Source: Synechococcus sp. SP2 MAG (lineage in GTDB: Bacteria; Cyanobacteriota; Cyanobacteriia; PCC-6307; Cyanobiaceae). Taken from it: a DNA stretch of 32,768 nucleotides. Positions 9,741-15,695 of this stretch are shown here, piece after piece. How positions within the stretch are numbered: position 1 is the stretch's first letter; every line of letters begins with the position of its first letter. The notes beneath the pieces were generated by a model. That model saw only the letters and a program-made list of their open reading frames with translations, had not been told where the DNA came from and made no database searches. The DNA is taken from assembly GCA_030756895.1 (NCBI GenBank), contig JAVBIX010000025.1, positions 1 through 32,768 on the forward strand, in the 5' to 3' direction. A program made the position numbers and the translations under genes.

Positions 9741-10481
9741 TCAAACGATGGAGACCTTTCCGGAGGCAACATCGAAATACCCGGCCACGATTTGAAGATC
9801 TCCCGATTGAACTGCGTTGGCCAAAACTTCGCTGCGTGTCGTGAGCTGTTGAGCTGTCGCACTGGCATTGTTTTTGATGGCGTTCGCCAAGGTGTCTCCT
9901 GGGACCAAGTTGGCTCGAATCGGCTCGATGAGCTGATCGAATAGTGGCGTGAGTGTTTGATTTGATCGCGCGGCTTGAACAGCGCCACAATTGCTGTGGC
10001 CCAATACCAAAATCAAGGGCGTTTTTAAGACTGCAACTCCAAACTCGAGAGAGGCAATTCCCTCGTCAAAAGGAGTGTTGCCTGCGCTACGTACAACAAA
10101 CAAATCACCAGCAGCAGCATCAAAAATCCATTCCGGAGCAACTCTGGAGTCAGCACAGCTAATGATGGAAGCCCAAGGAGATTGAGACTCTTCCAGAACG
10201 CTTGCAGGAAGGAAGCAATTGTCTAACCAAAGGTTGGACATCACTTGTGCGCGTTCGTTCAAACTCGTTGCCTTGTTCTTCGCTTGCCAAGCTGCCGCAA
10301 ACCGCGCATTTCCATCGATCAGGGCCGTGAGTGAATCGTCTGGCCGGCAGGATCGGGCTGATTCCTTTGGCGCTAGAAACGCTGCTTCGGCCTTAGCCGG
10401 CTTGATCAACTGCATCGCAGCCGCGAGACCAAAAGCGTTTAGGCCTCCACGAAACAGAAAAGAGCGTCGATTGAGTGTCAC
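9741..10481 (-). CDS. Beta-class carbonic anhydrase with Tat signal
   Basis: Interconverts CO2 and bicarbonate. The 246-residue protein carries the beta-class zinc site: Cys109, with the Asp111/Arg113 dyad (SCADSR), and His162 and Cys165 (GHSNCGA). The RSAGN motif lies at 131-135. The N-terminus has a twin-arginine pattern, NRRSFLFRGG, then a hydrophobic stretch and AEA near residue 33, which predicts Tat export and a periplasmic location. This differs from carboxysomal CsoSCA and from cytosolic forms, and suggests a role at the cell surface or in regulating CO2 uptake or leakage. Start is GTG at 10481. It stands alone, with spacers on both sides. Confidence 0.95.
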   Translation of the reverse strand: MTLNRRSFLFRGGLNAFGLAAAMQLIKPAKAEAAFLAPKESARSCRPDDSLTALIDGNARFAAAWQAKNKATSLNERAQVMSNLWLDNCFLPASVLEESQSPWASIISCADSRVAPEWIFDAAAGDLFVVRSAGNTPFDEGIASLEFGVAVLKTPLILVLGHSNCGAVQAARSNQTLTPLFDQLIEPIRANLVPGDTLANAIKNNASATAQQLTTRSEVLANAVQSGDLQIVAGYFDVASGKVSIV

Positions 10482-10839
10482 GAAACCTGCTTGAAGTAAG
10501 GCTCAATTCCCAGGGTGCTGATCAAGATCCAGTAAGGACGATTGACAAAGTTTAGACAGGCCTCTCATTCCAATTACACGTTCTGAAGTGCTGTAAACAC
10601 ATTAATTTCAAGCTGTTAGAGGCATTGATTGCAGCCAGGTTGGCTCGTGCAGTGATGCTCATAGCCTATTTGTGAGCCTTAGGACCTTCTCTAGATCGAC
10701 CGATGCCACTCATCAGCCTGAGCGATCCTTTCCATAATCTCTTCATGATGAGCACCGATTTGAGCCTTTGCTCCTTCAGTTCATAGGCCGTTGACTAATC
10801 GATTCCGCGCGTTGTCGCGCTCACAGATATGGAGGGCTT
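10482..10839. other. Intergenic stretch without a supportable gene
   Basis: It contains the upstream region of the carbonic anhydrase gene. On the minus strand near 10695-10780 a short coding-like trace ends EEIMERIAQADEWHRSI and a stop, but it has no usable start and may be a relic or chance. No repeat or terminator was seen. Confidence 0.45.
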
Positions 10840-11064
10840 TTAGATCGACTCTGCGGCGAGATACAGCGAACCAGCAAATCCATCGCGTCGTTTTCGATCA
10901 CCCCATACATATTGCAGATCCCCCTGTGTTTCCTTGTGGTAAAGATCTTCTGCGAGCTGCACAAGATTTCCGCCGGTCTGCAAATAGTCATCGGCGCTCT
11001 CGTATCCATTGTTTTGAAGCCACTGCACGGTGAGGTTGATCGCAGTTTCTTCGACCCTGGTCAT
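10840..11064 (-). CDS. Small hypothetical protein
   Basis: A 74-residue soluble protein starting at ATG 11064. It is acidic and probably helical in its first part (TRVEETAINLTVQWLQNNGY, ADDYLQTGGNLVQLAEDLYHK), with a C-terminal LYLAAESI. No signal peptide or membrane segment. It lies after the cyAbrB terminator, which separates the two transcripts. The regular helix pattern and ATG start favour a real gene over chance. I do not recognise the family. Confidence 0.6.
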   Translation of the reverse strand: MTRVEETAINLTVQWLQNNGYESADDYLQTGGNLVQLAEDLYHKETQGDLQYVWGDRKRRDGFAGSLYLAAESI

Positions 11065-13943: not shown

Positions 13944-15695
13944 TTATGATGAGCAGCTGTAATGAGAAATTCCGCCTGCATTGAAGTACTGAGCAGGTTT
14001 CAAACGATAGTATTTCTCTTCGATGGCTTGTGATTGCTCCTCGTAGGGATGGCTAAACACCTCCTGCAATTCTTTCACAAGTGCATAGTCACCTTGCTTC
14101 GCTTGTTGATAAGCAGGGGCAATGAGCCACTCGCGCCAGGTGTATTTCGGATTAACGCGCTTCATCTTTTCCGCGATCTCGTTTGGATCGCCACTGCCTC
14201 CTATCAGCTCATTCCAGCTCTGAAGCCAGGTTTGCCATTGATGCTCTAGATCTGTGGGGATCGATGCATAGAAGCTTATTTTTAAATCAGACCAATCCTT
14301 TGGAATCTTGCAGAGCTCACGAAAGAAAATTGTGAAATCAACCTTGGTTTGGACCATGAGTTGGAATAACTTATTGACCAGAGTTTCGTTGTAATGGGCG
14401 AGGCCAAGTTTATCTGCCCACATCTGTTGAATAGTGGTGTTGATGTTTTGTTTAAACCCATCACAGATCTTGTCTAATTGCTCTAATGCTGCCGGATCGT
14501 CTGCAATAAGCAGCCTTATGGCCTTCCAAAACATATGAAAATTAGCTTCTGCCGCTACTGGCTGATTAAAGAATGAGAAATGTTCGCCACCCCCAATCCA
14601 AGGCTGGAAACGCGGATCAAAGACTTCACAAAATCCAAACGGTCCATAGTCGAGGGTGAAGCCACCAGCTGCACAGTTATCACTATTGAAATTGCCTTGG
14701 CAATAACCAATGCGTAACCAATGGGCAACCAAGGTTGTTAGCCGATCTCGGTAGAGCTCGGCTAACTTTATTAATTGAGTTGGAAAATCTAGAGTCTGAT
14801 CGATTTCAGATTTGTATTCTCGATCGATTAAATGCATCACGATCATTCGTAACTCTTTTAATACATCTGGATGGTTTTTGGTTCGAGCACGTCTTGCAAA
14901 TAATTCCAATTGACCAACGCGTATAAAAGAGGGTGCTACACGGGTTGAAATTGCAACCGGATCCTCTACTAAAATATCTGGGTCAGATGAATTAGAGCTT
15001 TCTGAATACCAAGGTCGCCTAACGGTCTCTGTCTGTGATACATAAAGTGTTAAAGAACGAGACGTCGGTACTCCAAGGGCATGCATCAAGTCCTGTGCAA
15101 GAAATTCTCTTACGCTTGAGCGCAGAACGGCACGTCCATCAGCACCCCGACAGTAGGGAGTGGGTCCACCGCCTTTTAATTGCATCTCCCAACGTTGACC
15201 TTCAAGAACTCCTTCGAAGACCGAGATTGCGCGACCATCCCCATATCCATTGCCATTTCCAAATGGACATTGTTGATTATATTCAGTTCCATAAATGGAT
15301 AATGCATACCCCGTTGCCCATCCAAATGGGTGCATGGGATCTCGAATTTCAGAGAGATCACCCGAGAAAAGTTTCTTAAATTCCTCATTCAAGGCTAGTT
15401 CTTGATCTAAACCGAGTTCGGAGAAAAATGTTTTGCTATGGCTAATGTAGGTGGGCTGAGGCAGGGGCTTTGGAGTGACAGGAACAAAATGACCTGAGCG
15501 GACCTGTCGAGGTCGATGATCATCACCATCTTTTGTAGATTCCGGATCAGGATGAAGATTATCTAATAATGAATAATTTGCACTTTTAATAAAATTATTG
15601 AATGAAGCAGAGGATTGTTCAGAATTTCGATCAGGTGGATGTGACATTCTTGTTGCTCGCGCTTGTGATCTTTTGTGCATCATAGCTAGTTGCAT
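13944..15695 (-). CDS. selO: SelO/YdiU family protein adenylyltransferase
   Basis: A pseudokinase-fold enzyme; characterised members transfer AMP to Ser, Thr or Tyr of proteins and are linked to redox stress. The 583-residue protein keeps [23 protein letters not shown] (Lys174), [10 protein letters not shown] (Glu197), NFNSDNC (Asp339) and DYGPFGF (Asp349). It ends SCSS: Cys581 is third from the end, where many eukaryotic SelO proteins carry selenocysteine. It is about 100 residues longer than E. coli YdiU, with a polar N-terminal extension (1-80). The start is uncertain: ATG 15695 lies directly against an AGAGGAG, ATG 15683 is 12 bases from it, and ATG 15647 removes most of the unconserved leader. 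Codon use is AT-richer than in the core genes. Confidence 0.95.

Follow-up and report, generated by a model that had tools for sequence, protein, structure and literature searches.

Where in a cyanobacterial cell does a beta-class carbonic anhydrase (CA) with a twin-arginine signal act, and what could it do there? The carboxysome depends on a cytosolic pool of HCO3−, which a cytosolic CA would tend to short-circuit. The gene that raises the question lies in a 32,768-nucleotide stretch of the Synechococcus sp. SP2 MAG, referred to here as the window, and occupies positions 9741–10481 of the minus strand. It begins with GTG and encodes a Tat-signal beta-CA of 246 amino acids plus stop, an assignment based on its open reading frame, Pfam, the closest solved sequence, and a test of start conservation. 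The genome (G000; 2.22 Mb in 88 contigs, 99.77% complete) contains one Pro_CA match, one CsoSCA, and one ChpXY, and a search of it for alpha-CA returned no match. Of Pro_CA, CsoSCA, and alpha, the CA families covered by the search, it therefore has only CsoSCA and the window enzyme.

Pfam Pro_CA matches residues 105–243 (E = 5.1e-32; 111.7 bits, cut-off 25.7), and the two NCBIfam models reached scored the protein under their cut-offs. Alignment and comparison with the closest solved sequence place the zinc ligands at Cys109 (10155–10157) and at H162 and C165 (H162 to C165, 9987–9998), with the catalytic Asp-Arg dyad D111/R113 in D111-S112-R113 (10143–10151; all minus strand). All of these residues are intact, and the complete beta-class zinc site proposed in an earlier sequence-only reading is borne out together with its numbering (C109, H162, C165, D111, R113). 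The closest solved relative by sequence is Rv3588c of Mycobacterium tuberculosis (2a5v, 1ym3; E = 1.4e-20), which has the same active site; the alignment starts at query residue 96, so the signal and the cysteine-pair region described below have no sequence match in it. An AlphaFold model of the protein (mean pLDDT 86.3, pTM 0.79) returned 2a5v first in Foldseek (TM 0.65 by query, 0.78 by target), and the 50 matches listed are carbonic anhydrases throughout. From these features we infer that the protein catalyzes zinc-dependent CO2 hydration.

Joining this site to a twin-arginine signal, as the same reading did, presupposes that translation starts ahead of the two arginines. At the N-terminus the motif NRRSFLF (R5-R6; codons at 10464–10469, minus strand, placed by the alignment of 65 proteins) is followed by a hydrophobic stretch whose best 13-residue Kyte-Doolittle mean is 1.57, the arrangement of RR-x-F-L ahead of a hydrophobic stretch that characterizes Tat substrates. 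The signal region comprises residues 1–33 (10383–10481, minus strand), as delimited from the sequence, hydropathy, and the invariance of RR in 65 aligned proteins; by eye, cleavage may occur near AKA/AEA. Nine close orthologues, consisting of the window, six whole genomes, and two single-cell genomes, all share the GTG start. Across them, pN/pS is 0.11 in codons 2–12 (only 11 codons), equal to the 0.11 of the catalytic core, and takes values of 0.16 in codons 2–25, 0.40 in codons 26–44, and 0.21 from codon 45 onward. Of the 20 bases directly before the GTG, twelve never vary, whereas the five preceding 20-base blocks contain at most one invariant position each, and eight of the nine orthologues (all except AG-679-C18) have an AGCAGG-like site, a likely ribosome-binding site found at 10486–10491 (minus strand) in the window. 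Together, start conservation, codon constraint, and upstream invariance make it very probable that translation includes the RR motif and that selection maintains it. A start downstream of RR is thus disfavored, and the union of zinc site and signal gains support from the conserved arginines and from the single TatC gene in the genome, which together point to export via Tat. The reading's interpretation is in this way supported in part. Its further proposal, that the enzyme works in the periplasm, is less secure: the cyanobacterial Tat system serves the thylakoid lumen too, and the destination may be either compartment.

Two features that went unremarked in the earlier reading, a conserved cysteine pair and an insertion, set this enzyme apart. 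Its only cysteines are residues 45, 89, 109, and 165; besides the two zinc ligands there is an extra pair, Cys45 (10347–10349) and Cys89 (10215–10217; both minus strand), recognized by a signal/cysteine test, alignment, and a cysteine census. The test was applied to 108 distinct beta-CAs of the family, drawn from genus, family, and relative loci plus 60 regions chosen from, but not exhausting, the listed family Pro_CA matches, with duplicate sequences and L053, L056, and L057, decayed fragments from G190, kept outside the set. A signal was scored as RR plus hydropathy with a threshold of 1.0, and a pair as Cys 60–65 and 20 residues ahead of the zinc Cys; the window protein has both the RR and the pair that define its branch. 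All 62 picocyanobacterial enzymes that pass the signal test have the pair, its first Cys lying 60, 64, or 65 residues and its second 20 residues ahead of the zinc Cys, whereas among the 46 that fail it the pair is present in three and absent from 43. Those three (L016, L026, L061) carry QRRHFL or HRRHFL and a hydropathy of 0.89–0.95, borderline relative to 1.0.

In the 65 aligned sequences, which were selected for having the pair and share 42–95% identity with the window protein, R5, R6, C45, C89, C109, D111, R113, H162, and C165 are invariant. The spacing within the pair is 40, 44, or 45 residues, and from the first pair cysteine onward there are exactly four cysteines in 32 of the 65 and five to eight in the rest. 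Beyond the family, none of 36 beta-CAs of the phylum (0/16 and 0/20) and none of eight plasmid beta-CAs has the pair, counts that cover the fetched matches only. An RR signal without the pair occurs in 27 of those 36 (16/16 and 11/20); in other lineages, therefore, the signal does not require the pair. Within the family, pair and signal coincide along one branch, so this association counts as one evolutionary event, not many. We infer that C45 and C89 form a disulfide after export. The pair also provides a simple handle on whether exported enzymes stay inactive until export. Two variations within the 65 are worth recording: CADAR replaces CADSR/CSDSR at the zinc/dyad motif in eight (L082, L089, L090, L092, L093, L095, L096, L117), and a lipobox-like LVGC within the Tat signal marks one, L068 (G126), as a possible lipoprotein.

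Export of beta-CAs through Tat has precedents. EcaB, which is Slr0051 in Synechocystis sp. PCC 6803, and EcaB-like proteins are likewise cyanobacterial members of the beta class with a twin-arginine signal and a proposed role outside the cytosol, and the window protein shares with EcaB the combination of a beta-CA with a cyanobacterial Tat signal. A comparison with EcaA and EcaB, suggested alongside the sequence-only reading, separates the protein from both: it is not EcaA, which belongs to the alpha class, and it does not branch with the EcaB-like proteins used for the comparison, among whose rows Slr0051 does not appear by name. In an unrooted tree of 132 rows, the 65 pair-bearing enzymes make up one side of a branch with support 100/99. 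Across a 99/94 branch lie 16 EcaB-like, 8 plasmid, and 2 picocyanobacterial proteins, while 41 picocyanobacterial enzymes that have no signal remain on the near side; a treekit warning accompanies this tree, as long branches meet among the plasmid rows. A second tree of 77 rows, midpoint-rooted on three distant f31 rows, contains 23 of the 65, 14 of the 43, and further rows picked by hand (without L159, L161, L162, and L152b), and places the exported branch together with picocyanobacterial enzymes that have no signal, the support being only 86/77. In these trees the exported picocyanobacterial enzymes are a distinct lineage, which likely gained its Tat signal separately.

EcaB-like proteins lack the cysteine pair, and by eye their segment between GNxRF and the zinc cysteine is shorter by about 17 residues than that of the window branch. 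Some of them (L148, L149, L153) have, again by eye, a lipobox-like cysteine, and EcaB itself has a putative lipoprotein attachment site according to excerpts of two papers (PMC11360081, PMC10096703); in contrast, no cysteine precedes C45 in the window protein. The same excerpts describe a twin-arginine motif in Synechocystis EcaB, an interaction of EcaB with CupA/B, and its localization first to the periplasm and later mostly with thylakoids. Together with a portion of a third paper (PMC9865033), they also report a link to NDH-1 3/4, and activity in a later study following inactivity in an early one. EcaA alpha-CAs are external as well but belong to an unrelated class; an excerpt of PMC11360081 describes a disulfide that is essential to the EcaA of S. 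elongatus.

A similar distribution is described for the beta-A subfamily (clades A–D in PMC9477826, after Whitehead et al.). As described in part of that paper, beta-A is restricted to alpha-cyanobacteria, sporadic in clusters 5.1–5.3, and absent from Prochlorococcus; the window branch, similarly, is found only in its family. This agreement in distribution suggests that the window branch may be beta-A. The terms "periplasm," "EcaB," and "signal peptide" do not occur in the main text of PMC9477826, excerpts of PMC7522525, PMC9337993, and PMC11194058 contain nothing on the window enzyme, and a search of one paper library, judged by title and opening of the abstract, yielded no paper treating export or a disulfide in this branch. 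Neither its class nor Tat export as such makes the enzyme unusual; its lineage, its insertion, and its conserved cysteine pair are what make the variant worth assaying.

PF00484 matched in 149 of 300 family genomes and the window protein, used as query, in 150; by a cut-off of our own, about 119 of these have the exported type (best E of 1e-37 or lower) and 31 other types (1.4e-31 or weaker). Matches in G043, G067, and G103 are partial, those in G043 and G098 contain an internal stop, and G031, counted among the other types, is a contig-end fragment that may be of the exported type. The named relatives are the Synechococcus single-cell genomes AG-686-F08 (89%) and AG-679-C18 (72%). Of the 31 genomes of the genus, 18 have a match, which is of the exported type in 16; the 15 lacking an exported-type match, some of which are incomplete, indicate that the enzyme is not universal.

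Taken as a whole, these observations are best explained by a Tat-exported, disulfide-bearing CA that acts outside the cytosol, an account we consider likely. The enzyme would fold and take up zinc in the cytosol and then cross the membrane through Tat, after which the C45–C89 disulfide would form in its N-terminal arm and the enzyme would equilibrate CO2 and HCO3− outside the cytosol. Our leading, though tentative, candidate for its use is the conversion of HCO3− to CO2, either in the thylakoid lumen, which is acidic, or in the periplasm; ChpX/CupB-type NDH-1 would hydrate that CO2 back to the cytosolic HCO3− pool, and leaked inorganic carbon would be recaptured. If this reading is true, the enzyme may help the cell in CO2 recapture.

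Part of the review PMC13249358 describes a lumen-facing CO2 channel in NDH-1MS and hypothesizes that HCO3− leaking into the acidic lumen may yield CO2 that NDH-1MS rehydrates, an idea that the review itself labels solely structural; EcaB is unmentioned in that part. The channel belongs to the NdhF3/CupA form, whereas the single ChpXY of G000 may be of that type or another, and the EcaB data stem from another branch than the window enzyme. The role of external cyanobacterial CAs is called unknown or unconfirmed in excerpts of PMC11360081, PMC10096703, and PMC9865033.

Genome content is compatible with a connection to NDH-1. With the 300 genomes of both searches taken as the same set on the basis of shared handles, ChpXY occurs in 116 of the 119 genomes that have the exported CA and in 69 of the 181 that lack it (Fisher p = 1e-29, the genomes not being independent). 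The exported CA occurs without a ChpXY match in G029, G067, and G080, ChpXY occurs without the exported CA in 69 genomes, and streamlined Prochlorococcus-like genomes have neither. Since 30 of the 31 genomes whose CA is of another type also have ChpXY, the link extends beyond the exported type; within the genus the respective frequencies are 26/27 for ChpXY and 14/27 for the exported CA. The co-occurrence fits a supply of CO2 to NDH-1 and allows the model rather than proving it, being confounded by ancestry. A bolder version, which we regard as unlikely, holds that the post-export disulfide switches on a beta-CA of picocyanobacteria's own, evolved separately from EcaB, that would be silent in the cytosol, sparing the HCO3− pool that it would otherwise deplete, and would work in the lumen next to ChpX-type NDH-1 to recycle leaked carbon.

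Periplasmic action independent of NDH-1 is possible, if short of probable. Faster HCO3−/CO2 exchange at the plasma membrane would then supply bicarbonate transporters or CO2 diffusion, as would suit the retention of the exported CA in G029 and G080, which have no ChpXY match. Seawater, however, is rich in HCO3−, and the 116/119 co-occurrence with ChpXY would go unexplained, although ancestry could account for it. Excerpts from the literature on external CAs cut both ways: Synechocystis EcaB was placed in the periplasm by proteomics (PMC11360081, PMC9865033), but external alpha-CA added to S. elongatus had no discernible effect (PMC11360081).

Gene neighborhoods bring up a different role, in which the enzyme would support nitrogen assimilation by supplying or removing HCO3−/CO2 and protons for nitrate or urea use. 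Of the genes for the 65 proteins, 23 have moaC directly beside them on the same strand, 3 have urtE, 9 sit at the cyAbrB place described below, and 30 have none of the probes in the stretch covered. The moaC-side loci are L012, L016, L018, L022, L023, L026, L027, L029–L031, L043–L045, L047, L060–L063, L065, and L068–L071 (moaC-moeA), and in the 14 with a long enough stretch the opposite flank of the CA gene carries narB plus a Nitr_red_assoc gene, so that these copies lie in nitrogen-assimilation clusters, the Pfam identities of the moaC/narB neighbors being taken from L189. The urea transporter-like neighbors occur at L020, L048, and L049, where we assign the name urtE from a match to an ABC transporter and from the operon around it. 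Wider stretches for 20 of the 30 copies without a probe revealed narB 4–5 kb away in L199 and L200 and cyAbrB at the edge of L211; the simple gene caller left the CA itself unlisted in 8 of these 20.

Within the genus, 17 intact exported-type copies in 16 genomes occupy three places, beside cyAbrB (9), moaC (5), or urtE (3). Matches to narB and moaC were obtained in 25 and 24 of the 31 genus genomes, respectively, and neither gene matched in the nearly complete genomes G000 and G095, which have probably lost nitrate reduction. The enzyme is thus independent of nitrate reduction there, and it is nevertheless under purifying selection; given in addition the nine window-clade copies located elsewhere and the 30 of 65 without any probe beside them, we find a nitrogen-related role improbable. 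We likewise doubt that the N-terminus is Tat-like but unused, leaving the enzyme cytosolic, or that an uncleaved signal anchors it: N rather than S/T precedes RR, and just 45 of 65 have an A-x-A motif between the signal and the first cysteine of the pair, but RR is invariant in the 65 aligned sequences, the signal codons are as constrained as the core, and CA activity in the cytosol would tend to short-circuit the HCO3− pool that feeds the carboxysome.

Upstream of the CA gene in the window lies a paralogue of cyAbrB, an AbrB-like regulator (PF14250; 11171–11569, minus strand), and between the two is orf74 (10840–11064, minus strand), a 74-amino-acid frame conserved at 84–99% identity in 8/8 relatives and matched by no Pfam family. 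The cyAbrB paralogue is 95–99% identical and about 0.7 kb upstream in 9/9 window-clade genomes. Because the genes around cyAbrB and the CA are collinear in the eight relatives compared, as far as the stretches reach, the pairing is weak evidence of regulation, and we set aside a regulatory link; the linkage may reflect local synteny alone. None of the window's other tested genes is near the CA in five more distant relatives (L189–L193). A promoter scan found none, and terminator-like sites were at chance level (3 versus 2.6).

Searches of mobile elements gave no sign of a recent phage or plasmid origin: tblastn of phages returned 8 records, every one below 60% identity, the plasmid search 757 records with a best identity of about 40%, and the search of viral contigs 4 loci at 34–39%. 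Alpha-CA matched in 11 of the 300 family genomes. In four of these 11, all of one genus, the genes for the alpha-CA and an exported beta-CA are arranged tail to tail, with 0.5–0.7 kb between the matched stretches (G014:C10, G047:C60, G092:C147, G107:C13). Contig 2 of G190 (L053, L056, L057, L194) holds a second, decayed CA copy with several in-frame stops, and the intact copy is elsewhere. Finally, the window also encodes a SelO protein adenylyltransferase, at 13944–15695 on the minus strand.
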